Under the pieces are notes generated by a model. The model was not told the DNA's origin, did not search any database, and saw only the letters and a list, made by a program, of their open reading frames with translations. The translations under genes and the position numbers were made by a program. From Aquificaceae bacterium (GTDB lineage: Bacteria > Aquificota > Aquificia > Aquificales > Aquificaceae), in assembly GCA_025062075.1 (NCBI GenBank), contig JANXBA010000025.1, positions 1-40,350 on the forward strand: a stretch of 40,350 nt of DNA, read 5' to 3'. Shown here in pieces: positions 33,284-40,223 of the stretch; the first letter of the stretch is position 1, and every line of letters starts with the position of its first letter.

Positions 33284-34035
33284 TGGAGAGCATCGTAGAA
33301 GTAAGCGGTCTTAATCTTACTCTGGGTGGGAAGAGCATACTCAAAGAGGTGAGCTTTCAGGTTTACAAGGGGGAGGTCTTTACCATTCTGGGTGGAAGCG
33401 GAAGCGGAAAAACCACCATAACCAAATGTCTGGTGGGTCTGTACAGGCCTGCATCGGGTAGGGTGCGGGTCTTTGGCAAAGACGTGGCCTTGCTCAGTCA
33501 GTTGGAGCTGGACGAGCTAAGAAAGGGCATTGGATACGTCTTCCAAAGTGGAGCGCTTTTTGACAGCCTAAAAGTCTGGGAGAATGTGGTGTTCTACCAT
33601 CTGGAGCATCACAGCATGGACAGAGAAGAGCTCAAGTCTACGGCGCTCAAGTATCTGAACATGGTTGGTCTGTCGGAGGAACACTTAGACCTTTATCCTT
33701 CGGAGCTCTCCGGAGGTATGCGGAAGAGGGTGGGAATAGCCAGAGCCATAGCCACAGAACCCCGTCTTCTAATCTACGACGAGCCCACCTCTGGCCTTGA
33801 CCCCATCACCAGCAGGCTCATAGACGAGCTCATCCTGTGGCTGAGAGGCAGGACGGGTTCCTCCGCCATAGTGGTGTCCCATGACCTGGTCTCTGCTTTT
33901 TCCATATCAGACCGCCTACTGGTGCTCAAGGAGGGTCGGGTGTTGCAGGTAGGCACGCGGGAAGAGCTCCTCAACTCATCCATACCCTTTGTGAGGGAGT
34001 TTCTGAAAAAGGGGCTTGGCAACTTCAGCGTCTGA
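33283..34035 (+). CDS. MlaF/Ttg2A-like ABC transporter ATP-binding protein
   Basis: GGSGSGKTTITKCLVGLYRP, YPSELSGGMRKRVGIARAIATEPRLLIYDEPTSGLDPITS; ATG at 33283. Confidence 0.9.
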   Translation: MESIVEVSGLNLTLGGKSILKEVSFQVYKGEVFTILGGSGSGKTTITKCLVGLYRPASGRVRVFGKDVALLSQLELDELRKGIGYVFQSGALFDSLKVWENVVFYHLEHHSMDREELKSTALKYLNMVGLSEEHLDLYPSELSGGMRKRVGIARAIATEPRLLIYDEPTSGLDPITSRLIDELILWLRGRTGSSAIVVSHDLVSAFSISDRLLVLKEGRVLQVGTREELLNSSIPFVREFLKKGLGNFSV

Positions 34036-34879
34036 GCCTAAACTTCCTGAAAAGTCTCACCAGTGCGACGGCCAACAGGCTCCACCATCCGCCACCCGTG
34101 CCAGTGGAGCAGCCTCCCCCACCGCCACCTGCAGGAGGAGAGGTATTCTCCAGCAGAACGATGGGGTCTCTTATCACGTTTGGCGTAAGGTCTGTGTCCA
34201 TGAAAGAGTTGTCTTGCACCACGAAGGTGACTACAGAGCCCCGTATGTCTGCCTGAGAGGTTATGTCGTAGAGGGTTCCACCCACCTGTTTGAGTAGCCT
34301 ACTGCCTGCAGGTATGGGTCTTGGAAAGACCAGGCGCACCGTCTCGTAACCCGTGTTCGTGGTGAGGGAAAACTCTATGGCTCCGTAAGGTGCCACGAAG
34401 CCTTCAGGAGGCGAGAAGGTAATCCCACTCTGCCTGAAGCTAAGAATCTGGGAAGAGGTCTCCAGTCTCACCAGGCCGACGAGAGTGTCAACGGTCCGCG
34501 TGTAGGCAGGGTCTACGTTGGGCGCAGTGGGAGGTGGGTTAGATATGGGGGGAGCGGACCTTATGAGGACAAACTCGGCTATACAGCTTTTGTTGGAATC
34601 TACGATTATGGTGCAGTTTCTGTTAGTTCCACAACTGGCGCAGTCGCCTCTCCACTCAGAGAAGGCAGAGCCCCTGTCTGGAGTAGATTGTAGCGTCACG
34701 TTAGCTCCCGCAGTGAAGTTAGCAGAGCAGGTGCCACCGCAGTTTATACCAGCAGGACCGCTTATAACACTTCCGGTGCCGTTCCCCACTTTGTTAACGG
34801 TCAAGGTGTGAGTTTGCGGAGTTTGTGCATAGGCCATCCCTAAGGATAGGGAAGCAATCAAAGACAGCTTTCTCAACAT
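34025..34879 (-). CDS. Exported protein: InlB-type bacterial repeat + choice-of-anchor-U-like domain + CTERM-like tail
   Basis: ORF 284 aa; signal peptide; HTLTVNKVGNGTGSVISGPAGINCGGTCSANFTAGANVTLQSTPDRGSAFSEWRGDC; C-terminal GGGGGGCSTGTGGGWWSLLAVALVRLFRKFRLRR. Confidence 0.75.
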   Translation of the reverse strand: MLRKLSLIASLSLGMAYAQTPQTHTLTVNKVGNGTGSVISGPAGINCGGTCSANFTAGANVTLQSTPDRGSAFSEWRGDCASCGTNRNCTIIVDSNKSCIAEFVLIRSAPPISNPPPTAPNVDPAYTRTVDTLVGLVRLETSSQILSFRQSGITFSPPEGFVAPYGAIEFSLTTNTGYETVRLVFPRPIPAGSRLLKQVGGTLYDITSQADIRGSVVTFVVQDNSFMDTDLTPNVIRDPIVLLENTSPPAGGGGGGCSTGTGGGWWSLLAVALVRLFRKFRLRR

Positions 34880-34890
34880 GGCTAACCTCC

Positions 34891-35580
34891 TCAGAAGGGC
34901 CTACATTGGTCTCCTGGGCTTTGGTAGTCAGAAAGTCTAAAACCGAAGGAGTAGTTAACTTTCCTGGTTATGCCCGAGCTTAGCTCCACCAAGTCTAGCT
35001 CAAGGTTGGCAATACCGCTGCAAATGCCCCTGTAAGAGAGTATTTGAAACTCCGTTTGGCATCCGTCCTGATTTACGAAGACATAAGGCACCTGAACTAA
35101 GAGATTTCTCTTCATTTCCTGGGTTATGGGCTGTAAGGTTACGGTAGTCTGCCCGTTGGGTAAAAGGGAAACGCCCACCGGAAATTCGTAGACTCCGGGT
35201 ATGCAACCTGTGAAGCTTATTCTGTAGCTCCTGAAGAGCACCGAAGATGGGCTTGCGGGTATAGCTCTTCCAAAAGGGTCCCTTATGGGGTCAACAAAGA
35301 AGGTGAGCCGAAGAATTTCGTTGGTTATGTTGTAGGAAATGCACGCGTCGCCCACTCTCGCAACCTGGTCACATCTAGGGAAACCGGAGTTAACGCTCGC
35401 AGTTGTAAGAATGTGATTGACCACGTCCACGTCAAGGAACTCGGGGTCGCCTCTTAAAATACTCACCGTCACCGTGTTAAAGGCGAGCATGTCGCCGGAC
35501 AAACCTTTAGAACTACCCCCACATCCTACTATGGACAGTGCGGTAGCAACCACCCAAGCACCAAAGTAAGACCTTTTCAT
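34891..35580 (-). CDS. Hypothetical lipoprotein
   Basis: ORF 229 aa; signal peptide with lipobox LSIVGC; SD GGGAGGA. Confidence 0.7.
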   Translation of the reverse strand: MKRSYFGAWVVATALSIVGCGGSSKGLSGDMLAFNTVTVSILRGDPEFLDVDVVNHILTTASVNSGFPRCDQVARVGDACISYNITNEILRLTFFVDPIRDPFGRAIPASPSSVLFRSYRISFTGCIPGVYEFPVGVSLLPNGQTTVTLQPITQEMKRNLLVQVPYVFVNQDGCQTEFQILSYRGICSGIANLELDLVELSSGITRKVNYSFGFRLSDYQSPGDQCRPF

Positions 35581-35595: not shown

Positions 35596-36678
35596 TCAGT
35601 CTGGGTACTTTTCTTTTATTATAAGCACTTCCTCCAAGTTCTGGAAGAAAACTTCCAAAAGTTCAGGGTCAAAGTGTTTGCCCGAGAGCCTTCTCATGTA
35701 GTCGAGTGCCTCCTCCACGCTCCAGGCAGGTTTGTAAGGTCTCTTGGAGGTAAGGGCGTCAAACACGTCCGCTATGGAGGTTATGCGGGCTTCCACGCAT
35801 ATCTCCTCCCCTCTCTTTCCGTAGGGGTAGCCCGTCCCGTCCCACCTTTCGTGATGCTCCAGAGATATGCGCGCTGCCATCTGTAGGAGCTCGTTCTCGC
35901 TGTCCTTGAGAATTTCGTAACCTATTATGGTGTGCCTCTTCATGATTTCCCACTCTTCCCCTTCCAGTTTGCCCTTCTTGAGGAGTATGGCGTCCGGCAC
36001 GCCTATCTTACCTATGTCGTGCATGGGTGCAGCCATTTGCAAGTTGTAGCAGTACTCCTCGTCGTATCCCGATTTTTGGGCTATCAGACTTGCGATGAGA
36101 CCGATGCGCACTATGTGGTTGTACGTTTCCGGGTCCTTGTATTCGGCGGCATGGGATAGTCTCATTACCGTTTCCCTGTAGGCGGACCTTATCTTTTGGT
36201 AGAGCAGGCCAGCCTCTATTGAGTTGCCTGCGTAAGTGGCCAGCAGTTGCAAGAGCTCCATGTCCTCCAAGCTGAAATCTCCGCTGAGCTTGTTAATGGC
36301 CTGAAACACCCCTATGACCCTACCTCTGCTGTCTGTCAGAGGAACTGCCAGTATGTTTCTGGTTATGTATCCGGTGGCTTTGTCTACTTCTTTGTTAAAA
36401 CGCGGGTCCGCATAGGCATCATGTATAAGCAGAGGTTCACCTGAAGCAAAGACCGCACCCACCACGCCGGCATTGGCTGGGACCTCTATTTTGACATTTC
36501 CATGGGCCACCATGGTGTAGAGCGTGTCTTTAGAGCTGTCGTGGAGAAAAAGGCTACACCTGTCCACTTCAAGTAAGTCCTTGGCTAAGTCCGCCAGCAG
36601 GGGTATGAGCTTCTCTGCGTTGCGCTCTCTGGCTATGCTCCCTGCAGAGCTAAGCAGACGTTTGAGCTTATCAGACAT
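35596..36678 (-). CDS. GAF + HD-GYP domain protein (putative c-di-GMP phosphodiesterase)
   Basis: ORF 360 aa; GAF region (DSRGRVIGVFQAINKL), then AAPMHDIGKIGVPDAILLKKGKLEGEEWEIMKRHTIIGYEIL and HHERWDGTGYP. Confidence 0.93.
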   Translation of the reverse strand: MSDKLKRLLSSAGSIARERNAEKLIPLLADLAKDLLEVDRCSLFLHDSSKDTLYTMVAHGNVKIEVPANAGVVGAVFASGEPLLIHDAYADPRFNKEVDKATGYITRNILAVPLTDSRGRVIGVFQAINKLSGDFSLEDMELLQLLATYAGNSIEAGLLYQKIRSAYRETVMRLSHAAEYKDPETYNHIVRIGLIASLIAQKSGYDEEYCYNLQMAAPMHDIGKIGVPDAILLKKGKLEGEEWEIMKRHTIIGYEILKDSENELLQMAARISLEHHERWDGTGYPYGKRGEEICVEARITSIADVFDALTSKRPYKPAWSVEEALDYMRRLSGKHFDPELLEVFFQNLEEVLIIKEKYPD

Positions 36679-37363
36679 AAGCTATGCTCCTGAGGTAGGA
36701 CTTTAGCCTGTCTGGGTTGAACTTCACCTTGTAGAGCACCTCTTCCTTTCCGTCCTCACCCAGGAGTGTGGACTCCTCCGCCTCCACGACGCCAGCCCTA
36801 ACAAAGGCGTTTATGATGCTTTCTACTTTGCTGCTTTCCAATCCATACTCCGTGCAAAATTTTCTAATGTACAGCTCCGTAACACTCTGCTCCGCTTCGC
36901 CGTAAGAAGCCTCCTCTACCCTCCTGTTCTCCAAAAGGTACATGCCCAATACGTACATCAACTTTGAAGTCATTATGCTTATGACCCTTCTGTTTAGGTT
37001 GTTGATGCGTTTTGACAGCTCTTTCAACATGGTGTGGGCAAGCTCTGGCACACGGCTTACTGCGGAGAGGAAAGTCTCTACATCAAAGACCAGGGCGGTC
37101 ACTACGGAGGAAGCTCTTACTGTGGCAGTCCTCTCCCCCTCTAAGAAGATTCCCATTTCGCCGAAGATACTCCCAGGGCCAGCCAGACCCACGAAGACCT
37201 CGTCTTCACCTACCCCCTTCTTAAAGACGGAGGCGTGTCCGCTCAGCAGGACGAAGACCTTGTCAGCTTTTTCACCCTCCTTTAGGATAACATCGCCCAT
37301 GTTGAACTTGACCTCTTCTCCTAATTCCTTTATTTTGCTTATCATTTCCTCCCTTAACTGCAT
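36671..37363 (-). CDS. Crp/Fnr-family cyclic-nucleotide-binding regulator
   Basis: ORF 230 aa; cNMP-binding pattern GDVILKEGEKADKVFVLLSG...GSIFGEMGIFLEGERTATVRA; C-terminal winged-helix-like region; SD GGAGGT. Confidence 0.88.
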   Translation of the reverse strand: MQLREEMISKIKELGEEVKFNMGDVILKEGEKADKVFVLLSGHASVFKKGVGEDEVFVGLAGPGSIFGEMGIFLEGERTATVRASSVVTALVFDVETFLSAVSRVPELAHTMLKELSKRINNLNRRVISIMTSKLMYVLGMYLLENRRVEEASYGEAEQSVTELYIRKFCTEYGLESSKVESIINAFVRAGVVEAEESTLLGEDGKEEVLYKVKFNPDRLKSYLRSIAYV

Positions 37364-37396
37364 AACTCTACCTCCGGACGGTTTAGTTTTATTATT

Positions 37397-38191
37397 TTAA
37401 ACCGTTAGCTTGCGTTTACCCACTATGGGATACACTTTGTAGTCTAATTTTCTGAGTTCTTCCAACACTTCCTTCTCGTGAGAGGGTTTGATGTGAACTA
37501 CATACACCCGTAGGTCTTTCCTGCTTATGAGTTTTATGTCTTCTCTCAAGCTCTGAGGAGTGTGGTGCAGGCTTGCCTGCGCTACCATGGACATGTAAGA
37601 AGGGAAGGACACATCCACCAAAACTAGTTTTATCTCGGGGTCTTCCTGTATCATCTTCCACAGCTCCGGGTTGCGGTAGGTGTCTGAGGTGTATACTATC
37701 CCTCTGCCTTCCCTCTTGACGATAAGGCTTACGGTAGGTACCGTGTGTCTGCTCTCCACTGGTATGAGCCTGTAGCCGTCTATGTGGTACTCCTGTAGAG
37801 GTTTTATCTGCACGTACTCAACGGCATACTCATCGGTGGTAGGAAGCTTCAGAGAACTAAACTCAGGCCACACATCCCAGTTCATGATGTTTTTCCTCAA
37901 AGAGTCCAGCGTCTCAGGCAGACCGTATATCTTGAGAGGCTTTTCTCTGAGGCCGTATGTGTAGTCTATGAGAAAGGGTATGTCAACCAAGTGGTCCAAG
38001 TGAGAATGTGTTAACACTACGTGCTCCACCTGCAGGAGTTTATCTCTACTGAGGGCAAAAATGTTGCCAGCGTCCAGCAGAAGGCTTTCTGGTAGGTAAA
38101 GGCACATGCTGTACCTGTCTTTTGCCCGGCCTCCAGCACTTCCCAGCACGTAGAAAAACCAGCCGTTACTTTTCTTTTGCCACATACACAC
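37397..38191 (-). CDS. MBL-fold hydrolase, probable class-II (PDE1/CpdP-type) 3',5'-cAMP phosphodiesterase
   Basis: ORF 264 aa; VVLTHSHLDHLVDIPFLIDYTYG, ESRHTVPTVSLIVKREGRGIVYTSDTYRN. Confidence 0.82.
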   Translation of the reverse strand: MCMWQKKSNGWFFYVLGSAGGRAKDRYSMCLYLPESLLLDAGNIFALSRDKLLQVEHVVLTHSHLDHLVDIPFLIDYTYGLREKPLKIYGLPETLDSLRKNIMNWDVWPEFSSLKLPTTDEYAVEYVQIKPLQEYHIDGYRLIPVESRHTVPTVSLIVKREGRGIVYTSDTYRNPELWKMIQEDPEIKLVLVDVSFPSYMSMVAQASLHHTPQSLREDIKLISRKDLRVYVVHIKPSHEKEVLEELRKLDYKVYPIVGKRKLTV

Positions 38192-40223
38192 CCTCCCATC
38201 TCTCCGGCGGTTCCAACACCAGTTGCCTGCAACGCTTTAACATGGCTTCAGAGGGACCGTCGTTAAATTTTAACACGAGCTCTTCAAACTCTATCATGGC
38301 CTCTTCAAAGTGGCCTTTAAAGTATCTGTCCAGAGCTCTCTCGTAGAGCTCCTTCAAGAGCCTGTTGTTAGGGGTGTCTTCCATAAGCTCGTAGAGTAGA
38401 ACTGCCTGACTTTTCCCCTTTACCGCCACTCGGTCCAGAGGTCTTAAGAGAAACTCCTCTTCAAGCCCTTTTGCGGTAAACTGGCTCAAGATGATGTTCG
38501 TGTTGTAGAGTTTGTTGAGTCCCTCAAGCCTTGAGGCCAAGTTGACCGTGTCTCCTATGGCGGTGTAGTCAAAGCGAACCCTTGACCCCATGTTGCCTAC
38601 GACCGCGTACCCTGTGTTTATGCCTATGCCCACGTTCAGCTCAAGCCCAAACTTGGCCTTAAAGCCAGCGTTGAGCTCTTTTAGCCTTCTCACCATTCTC
38701 AAGGCGGTCCTACAGGCCCTGTCCCTGTGCTGTGGTAGGTCCAAGGGGGCGTTAAAAACAGCCATGATGGCGTCTCCTATGTACTTGTCCAGCATCCCGC
38801 CCTCCTCTAGCACTATAAGGGTCATGGGCTCTAAGTATTCGTTGAGCAGGGAAACCAACTTCTCCGGGTCAAGCCCTTCTGAAAGGGTGGTAAAACCGCG
38901 CAGGTCTGAAAACAGCACCGTTATCTCCCGCTTCTCTCCTCCCAGCTTGAGCTTTTCTGGGTCCTTCAGGATTATTTCTAAGAGCTGAGGGGAAACATAG
39001 CTGGAGAAGGCCTTTTTTAGCTCACCCACCCTGCGTTCAGAGGTGTAGTAGAGGTAGGTTTCTACCGTCAGGTAAGAAAAGCTCAGAGAAAGCAGGGGAT
39101 AGAAGAAGGGCACGTAAACCTTCATGTAAACAAACAGGAGCACGCAGGCAGAGAAGACGGACAGAAGCAGTGTTAAGTACATTACCGCCCTGTGTCTTAA
39201 CTTTTTCAGGGCAAGGAATGAAAGGGGGAGCAAACCCAAGAAGGGCACCAGCACATAAAGGCTCTGGGAAAAATCTCTTACTAAGTCTCTGGTGAGAAGG
39301 TTGGAAAGGGCGATGTAGTGCAGGTACACGCCAGGAGTGGCCGGGTCAAGAGGAGTGGGCCTTATGTCGTAGATGCCTATTTCAGTAGCTCCCACCAAAA
39401 CCACTTTGTCCTTCAAGGATACCTTTCCCTGCAGCACTTCTACCGCAGGCACTACTTTTACCGTCTTTGTGGAGGGAAAGTTGAGGAGAAGGGAGTTCCT
39501 GTTGGAAAGCGGAAGAGTAAACTCACCGAGCTTTGCCTCCTCTATGCCCGAGGAGGATACCACGAGCTCTAAGTCCTTGTTCTCTAAGAATCTGTAGGCC
39601 TGTAAGGCCATGGAGGGGAAGATACTGCCTTGGAACATGTAGGCCACAGGATACCTTCTGTACAGACCGTCAGGGTCAGGCTCGGAGTTGAAAGGTGCTT
39701 GGGCCAAAACTGCACTGGCTATGGGTCTTACGCTGAGCTCCACAAAGGGAAACTCCTTTATGCCCACTCTGCTTTCCAACTTTTTGACCCTTAGAAGTTC
39801 GCTGTCTCTGAGAAGGTCTGCCTCTTCAGAGGTGGCGGTTTTGGTAGCGTCCCTGCGGAAGAAAAAGCCCATTATAGCATTGCTGGTCTCCTGCAGAGCT
39901 CTTGAGAGTTCTTTGTCGCCCGGTGCAGGCTCGGAGAAGACCATGTCAAAAAGCACCAGGTTTGCCCCTGAGAGTTCCTGCACAAGTTCTGCCATAGTCT
40001 GCCTGCTCCAAGGCCACCTGCCCAACTGGTTTACGCTCTTTTCGTCTACCGCCACCACCACCAGGTCAGGGTGGGGCTCGTGTTCCTTCCCCAAAAAGTG
40101 CTGGAAAAGGTAGAGACTGTCCTCTACTCTGAGACGGACCGCTTCCATAAAACTCGGCTTGAAGTGAAAAAGAAGGAGCAAAGCCAAGCTCAAGGCAAAG
40201 TTTATGAGGGCTACCTTATGCAA
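38166..40223 (-). CDS. CHASE2-domain class III adenylate/guanylate cyclase (TTG start)
   Basis: ORF 685 aa; extracytoplasmic CHASE2-like region, TM helices, then EITVLFSDLRGFTTLSEGL...GGMLDKYIGDAIMAVFNAP...RFDYTAIGDTVNLASRLEGLNK. Confidence 0.94.
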   Translation of the reverse strand: MHKVALINFALSLALLLLFHFKPSFMEAVRLRVEDSLYLFQHFLGKEHEPHPDLVVVAVDEKSVNQLGRWPWSRQTMAELVQELSGANLVLFDMVFSEPAPGDKELSRALQETSNAIMGFFFRRDATKTATSEEADLLRDSELLRVKKLESRVGIKEFPFVELSVRPIASAVLAQAPFNSEPDPDGLYRRYPVAYMFQGSIFPSMALQAYRFLENKDLELVVSSSGIEEAKLGEFTLPLSNRNSLLLNFPSTKTVKVVPAVEVLQGKVSLKDKVVLVGATEIGIYDIRPTPLDPATPGVYLHYIALSNLLTRDLVRDFSQSLYVLVPFLGLLPLSFLALKKLRHRAVMYLTLLLSVFSACVLLFVYMKVYVPFFYPLLSLSFSYLTVETYLYYTSERRVGELKKAFSSYVSPQLLEIILKDPEKLKLGGEKREITVLFSDLRGFTTLSEGLDPEKLVSLLNEYLEPMTLIVLEEGGMLDKYIGDAIMAVFNAPLDLPQHRDRACRTALRMVRRLKELNAGFKAKFGLELNVGIGINTGYAVVGNMGSRVRFDYTAIGDTVNLASRLEGLNKLYNTNIILSQFTAKGLEEEFLLRPLDRVAVKGKSQAVLLYELMEDTPNNRLLKELYERALDRYFKGHFEEAMIEFEELVLKFNDGPSEAMLKRCRQLVLEPPERWEGVYVAKEK

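Follow-up and report, generated by a model that had tools for sequence, protein, structure and literature searches.

We analyzed a 40,350-nucleotide (nt) stretch of DNA from an Aquificaceae bacterium (assembly GCA_025062075.1, contig JANXBA010000025.1), hereafter the window, in which four minus-strand open reading frames (ORFs) span positions 35,596 to 40,223 and encode proteins predicted to act on, or bind, the second messengers cyclic AMP (cAMP) and cyclic di-GMP (c-di-GMP). These are a cyclase with a CHASE2 sensor, a hydrolase of the metallo-β-lactamase (MBL) fold, a Crp-like cyclic-nucleotide-binding (cNMP) protein, and a GAF-HD-GYP protein (Table 1). The cyclase and MBL genes overlap by 26 nt, 33 nt separate the MBL and Crp-like genes, and the Crp-like and HD-GYP genes overlap by 8 nt. 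An ORF check confirmed this arrangement as given in a preliminary description of the locus, and Pfam matches together with a motif check bore out the four families that it named. It had overlooked a FecR-domain gene whose last 13 nt overlap with the start of the cyclase gene, as well as two secreted-protein genes after the HD-GYP gene. The window holds only the end of the FecR-domain gene, whose translation (TAGSSYIVGADFVRRLDAQQ...RTPCIR, then stop) resembles the C terminus of the FecR protein of a related genome, G009, which ends in RQPCIR. FecR orthologues in G009, G002, G017, G060, and G054 match the Pfam FecR model at 1e-10 to 1e-18. A promoter and terminator search at the locus gave counts no better than those of shuffled sequences.

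Table 1. Genes at the second-messenger locus of the window, listed in the direction of transcription.
Feature	Position	Strand	Basis or remark
FecR-domain secreted protein, C-terminal 45 residues	40211..40348	-	Cut by contig end
CHASE2 - transmembrane - predicted class IIIb adenylyl cyclase, 685 aa, TTG start	38166..40223	-	Pfam, PDB, residues
MBL-fold class-II-PDE-like phosphodiesterase, 264 aa, predicted cAMP hydrolysis	37397..38191	-	Pfam, metal ligands, AlphaFold fold
Crp-like cyclic-nucleotide-binding protein, divergent winged-helix C-domain, 230 aa	36671..37363	-	Pfam, residues, model
GAF-HD-GYP, predicted c-di-GMP phosphodiesterase, PmGH family, 360 aa	35596..36678	-	PmGH homology, residues
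Lipoprotein-like secreted protein, possible operon member	34891..35580	-	15-nt gap after HD-GYP
Choice-of-anchor U surface protein, possible operon member	34025..34879	-	NCBIfam NF041766, 5.5e-13

The cyclase, the sole class III cyclase of its genome, matches the Pfam families CHASE2 (7.5e-46) and Guanylate_cyc (2e-24), carries the motifs SDLRGF and DKYIGD, and finds its best PDB matches among adenylate cyclases (6fht, 3r5g, and 2w01). Across 12 orthologues, the metal-binding aspartates D440 and D484 do not vary, nor do K480, T554, N561, and R565. We take Lys480 and Thr554 to be the class IIIb residues that specify ATP, and N561 and R565 to be the transition-state residues of the NxxxR motif. 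Because the metal-binding aspartates and these presumed specificity residues are unvarying, the predicted product of the enzyme is cAMP.

The HD-GYP protein (Pfam GAF, 8.3e-22; HD_5, 3.1e-37; motifs HDIGK and WDGTGYP) aligns over its whole length with PmGH of Persephonella marina (PDB 4mcw; 445 bits, E = 1.4e-132), an active c-di-GMP phosphodiesterase (PDE) and structural paradigm of the HD-GYP enzymes (PMC4159591). All His and Asp metal ligands of PmGH and the GYP motif are kept, the ligand Glu185 being E or D among orthologues, and nine metal or catalytic residues (D182, H188, H220, D221, K224, H249, H275, H276, and D304) do not vary in 10 orthologues. The protein thus fits the trinuclear subgroup of HD-GYP c-di-GMP phosphodiesterases, with its activity predicted from PmGH. 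No membrane anchors were predicted in PmGH-type HD-GYP proteins. Elsewhere, the window's genome contains three GGDEF, three EAL, and one PilZ matches. The corresponding protein of genome G054 agrees with the sequence of the PmGH crystal at all but 2 of 355 positions, where the genome has Cys and the crystal Ala, so this genome is P. marina or a near twin. In it, PmGH is part of the same cluster: the HD-GYP gene heads an operon of overlapping genes in the order HD-GYP, FecR, cyclase, MBL. Convergent with the MBL gene, which closes this operon, is the gene for an 847-residue EAL-domain protein (L114:8884-11427, minus strand), which adds another c-di-GMP enzyme to the locus.

We surveyed 61 genomes of the order Aquificales for these genes. 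The cyclase and the MBL hydrolase occur in an identical set of 14 genomes and in none of the other 47, a joint occurrence far beyond chance (Fisher p ~4e-14, or 2e-12 among genomes at least 90% complete, relatedness not being corrected for). Of the 14, G031 has its cyclase only as a fragment, which lies at the end of a contig. The PmGH-type HD-GYP protein is found in 13 of the 14 and in no other of the 61, the exception being a genome that is 76% complete. In four genera of mixed content (g1, g6, g14, and g15), presence and absence of the module genes go together. Gene order is FecR-cyclase-MBL-Crp-HDGYP in the window's family and HDGYP-FecR-cyclase-MBL in Persephonella and one further genome of its family; in G009 and G002 the cyclase, PDE, and FecR genes and an upstream TPR gene are all adjacent. 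A different arrangement was seen in genus g3 (L117:6038-10196, L118:3832-7990, and L125), in which the cyclase is of a divergent CHASE2 type (~32% identical) and lies directly downstream of a 695-residue subtilase with PKD/TIG domains; the MBL and HD-GYP genes stand side by side on the opposite strand.

The cAMP module with HD-GYP is not a speciality of Aquificales. A scan of named genomes found many Proteobacteria and Campylobacterota in which the MBL gene adjoins a CHASE2 cyclase gene. In Sulfurimonas OB8, the GAF-HD-GYP and MBL parts form one 646-residue protein, and a Sulfuricurvum encodes the reverse fusion, MBL-GAF-HD-GYP, whose GAF-HD-GYP part is more distant. Among 200 genomes from the Sulfurimonas family, 44 encode the full-length GAF-HDGYP-MBL fusion; a class III cyclase accompanies it in 39 of these 44, versus 1 of 20 genomes without any match. 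We read 20 Campylobacterota loci. Nine have FecR, cyclase, and fusion genes in succession (the cyclase of L242 is split into two ORFs), and six have FecR, cyclase, HD-GYP, and MBL as separate genes. The fusions that we read retain the two catalytic sites; three of them do not exactly fit the strict GYP pattern used. Genes mostly overlap in all three gene orders, those of the window's family, Persephonella, and Campylobacterota. From their co-occurrence, their permuted gene orders, and the MBL/HD-GYP fusions in both orders, it follows that FecR, CHASE2 cyclase, MBL, and GAF-HD-GYP are the four core parts of one conserved functional unit. These findings uphold the earlier proposal that cAMP synthesis and degradation are packaged with a c-di-GMP phosphodiesterase, and the cluster is retained in close relatives.

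The MBL hydrolase of the window contains the motif THSHLDH, and its dinuclear metal ligands (H62, H64, D66, H67, H149, D170, and H233) are unvarying in 13 orthologues. It passes the curated cut-off of the Pfam class II PDE model PDEase_II (36.3 bits; cut-off 23.7), which matches all 13 orthologues and scores 59 bits in the fusion protein; Lactamase_B_2 scores 51.6. The best PDB fold match of its AlphaFold model (predicted local distance difference test score, 93) is yeast PDE1 (4ojv), at 18% identity in the fold alignment, with YhfI/ElaC homologues, RNase Z, and Apyc1 close behind. The mycobacterial cyclic nucleotide PDE Rv1339 has been modeled on YhfI and called an atypical class II PDE (PMC9293780). 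On this evidence from profiles and a predicted fold, we filed the protein as class-II-PDE-like rather than as an equivalog, with cAMP hydrolysis as the predicted activity. The preliminary description had named alignment to RNase Z or another hydrolase as a danger to its reading, and an RNase Z-type tRNA-processing enzyme in the operon by chance could draw on matches to RNase Z models at 1.9e-11 to 5.2e-9 and on the window's genome (G000), in which we found two weak MBL matches only and no RNase Z above the TIGR02651 cut-off. These scores of ~40 fall far below the cut-offs of 250 to 315 (for TIGR02651, 40.5 against 292.95 bits), however, and a gene missing from 47 of 61 related genomes is not a housekeeping gene. 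Given also its strict linkage to the cyclase and its fusion to HD-GYP, we rejected this identity, to which we attach next to no probability. Another candidate role is the completion of c-di-GMP breakdown, from pGpG to GMP, or cleavage of some other phosphodiester, which would account for the physical fusion to HD-GYP and accords with the cleavage of RNA and other phosphodiesters by related MBL folds, and with the low score against the NCBIfam cyclic-nucleotide PDE equivalog NF041851 (23 bits; cut-off 400). It appears improbable, as the MBL gene is in exactly the genomes that have the cyclase whereas almost every genome has GGDEF and EAL proteins, as PDEase_II and yeast PDE1 are its profile and fold matches, and as PmGH unaided is described as converting c-di-GMP to GMP (PMC4159591).

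The Crp-like protein had been proposed as the cAMP readout of the module. Its Pfam cNMP_binding match (1.1e-19) and FGE...ERTA motif are clear, the phosphate-binding cassette (G68, E69, R78, and T79) is unvarying in 10 orthologues, and the predicted model has a winged-helix fold with a full-length match to Thermus CAP (4ev0). An intact cassette and a Crp-like overall fold are what one would expect of a classical cAMP-Crp operon, in which this protein would be the main readout and regulate various genes, those of the operon itself among them, HD-GYP being one of its targets. The distribution and the C-terminal domain speak against such an arrangement. The gene is present in 10 of the 14 Aquificales modules but missing from the other four and from all 20 Campylobacterota loci that we read. 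None of the ten orthologues matched HTH_Crp significantly, and HTH_Crp_2 matched one of them at E = 0.18. The C-domain is acidic in all ten (net charge -2 to -7), compared with a mean of +2.5 (range, -5 to +7) in 14 paralogues, and lacks the usual recognition-helix residues. We consider the classical arrangement highly unlikely; since it is often missing and its DNA-binding domain is atypical, we class the Crp-like protein as accessory within the window's family and not as the core readout. Outside Aquificales, a Crp-like cNMP protein lies immediately next to the MBL gene in L170:4957-8744 (Archangiaceae), after a CHASE2 cyclase, and in L187:1710-3159 (FCPU426).

The conserved readout of cAMP is more likely to be the GAF domain of the HD-GYP protein than the Crp-like protein. 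In a PDB search, this domain matched GAF domains of cyclic-nucleotide enzymes at 1e-21 to 1e-29 (CyaB2, 4.9e-29; PDE5, 1.9e-26; PDE2A, 8.2e-26; PDE10A, 3.7e-24), and the nearest GAF outside such enzymes at 4e-10; the GAF of the fusion protein is again best matched by CyaB2 (7.6e-33). Four residues of the NKFDE signature (N129, K130, F135, and D139) are unvarying. The threonines of TGYxT, presumably cGMP contacts in PDE2A, are kept. The two messengers could nevertheless be parallel outputs, with cyclase, MBL, and Crp-like protein forming a cAMP loop and the HD-GYP protein merely co-regulated, its GAF serving another ligand or dimerization. Consistent with that alternative, the PmGH dimer depends on the GAF domain and a long helix, and the available text of the structural study reports no GAF ligand (PMC4159591); moreover, G018 and G026 carry the HD-GYP gene at a distant site, far from the cluster. 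Its tracking of the cAMP genes, the fusion to a predicted cAMP PDE in another phylum, and the cyclic-nucleotide type of the GAF all argue against parallel outputs, which we regard as unlikely.

We therefore favor, as more likely than not, a module that converts an envelope signal to cAMP, with cAMP in turn setting c-di-GMP. The FecR-domain protein and CHASE2 would sense a periplasmic or envelope condition, and the class IIIb cyclase would respond by making cAMP. Binding of cAMP to the GAF domain of the neighboring or fused HD-GYP protein would change its c-di-GMP phosphodiesterase activity, most likely by raising it, a sign that we guess from other GAF enzymes. The HD-GYP domain, with activity as in the P. 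marina orthologue, would then hydrolyze c-di-GMP and lower its level, and the class-II-like MBL enzyme, judged by family and fold, would degrade cAMP and reset the switch. In Aquificaceae, the Crp-like protein may act as a second, optional cAMP reader. The linkage of these enzymes is directly observed in genomes; gating by cAMP is what we infer. For the more specific proposal, that PmGH-type HD-GYP proteins are cAMP-gated c-di-GMP phosphodiesterases, and that the fusions of Sulfurimonas relatives read and destroy cAMP and destroy c-di-GMP as a self-resetting converter, we see the balance as even.

Several observations weigh against the favored module, in addition to the distant HD-GYP genes of G018 and G026. 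In most orthologues, a hydrophobic residue stands in place of the final E of the NKFDE signature, so that the signature is incomplete, and not all PDE GAF domains bind a nucleotide. The PDEase_II alignment covers only residues 55 to 144 of the window MBL protein, which has similarity to RNase Z and PhnP models as well. In five of the 20 Campylobacterota loci, the flanks that we read around the fusion gene contain no cyclase, and no class III cyclase was found in 5 of the 44 genomes with the fusion.

Two further genes follow the HD-GYP gene in the window. The lipoprotein-like protein has no Pfam matches; a 40% identical orthologue occupies the same position after HD-GYP in G009, and the gene is absent from the Persephonella cluster. 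The choice-of-anchor U protein also has an orthologue downstream in G009, encoded by a much longer ORF (613 residues). Its own C terminus, GGGGGGCSTGTGGGWW-hydrophobic-RLFRKFRLRR, has the look of a C-terminal sorting signal with a cysteine at its center. In betaproteobacteria, a version of the cluster (Gallionellales, L159:1255-14007; alike in L168, L172, L185, L204, and L207) encodes a CHASE2-Ser/Thr kinase, an FHA protein, a CHASE2-cyclase, MBL, a cNMP-rhodanese, a GAF-MshEN-T2SSE ATPase, and a GAF-HD-GYP protein, with a pilin gene nearby, which suggests that the cAMP module is connected with the ATPases of pili or of type II secretion. A search for viral copies of the MBL PDE found none.

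The analysis proposes, in concrete and testable form, which signal is read by the sensor domain in the best-known HD-GYP structure, and in the fusions one polypeptide appears, from its predicted active sites, to degrade both cAMP and c-di-GMP. If the proposal is true, the transcriptional route from cAMP to c-di-GMP through Crp gains a direct enzymatic one, conserved in at least two phyla. Within the open-access literature that we searched, the new elements are HD-GYP as a core part, the MBL/HD-GYP fusions, the operon context of PmGH, and the distribution in Aquificota. A search of that literature for GAF-HD-GYP proteins with cAMP or a fused PDE returned only Bd1971, Lcd1, and a Campylobacterota cluster, and earlier notice elsewhere is possible.

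That cluster of CHASE2-cyclase, cAMP phosphodiesterase, FecR, and TPR genes was reported in 2022 in mBio, with one pathway and horizontal gene transfer to other phyla proposed and with extracytoplasmic function (ECF) parts clustering with cAMP or c-di-GMP enzymes (PMC9239204). It shares the core genes described here, including FecR and, in G009 and G002, the upstream TPR gene; the available text describes no GAF-HD-GYP protein in the cluster, no PDE fusion, and no Aquificota. PmGH is orthologous over its full length, shares the metal and catalytic residues, and is encoded within the module in P. marina, but was studied as an isolated enzyme, and the terms searched in the accessible text returned neither an operon nor cAMP (PMC4159591); here, it is read in its operon context. 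Bd1971 of Bdellovibrio is a c-di-GMP phosphodiesterase under cAMP control, although it combines EAL with a Crp-type cNMP domain instead of GAF-HD-GYP and has no fused cAMP phosphodiesterase (PMC6717892). Lcd1 of Leptospira, a GAF-GGDEF protein known to us from citing papers (PMC6416229, PMC6717892), is described there as binding cAMP through its GAF domain and altering c-di-GMP metabolism; it acts on synthesis, as a diguanylate cyclase, rather than on degradation by HD-GYP, and no PDE fusion is described. Class II PDEs such as yeast PDE1 and Rv1339 have the MBL fold, HxHxDH site, and PDEase_II profile in common with the window MBL protein, which is distant in sequence, linked or fused to HD-GYP, and assigned its substrate by prediction. 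The GAF domains of CyaB2, PDE2A, PDE5, and PDE10A are the nearest solved ones apart from PmGH and share the TGYxT motif, whereas the last NKFDE residue is replaced in the module proteins and the output is HD-GYP.

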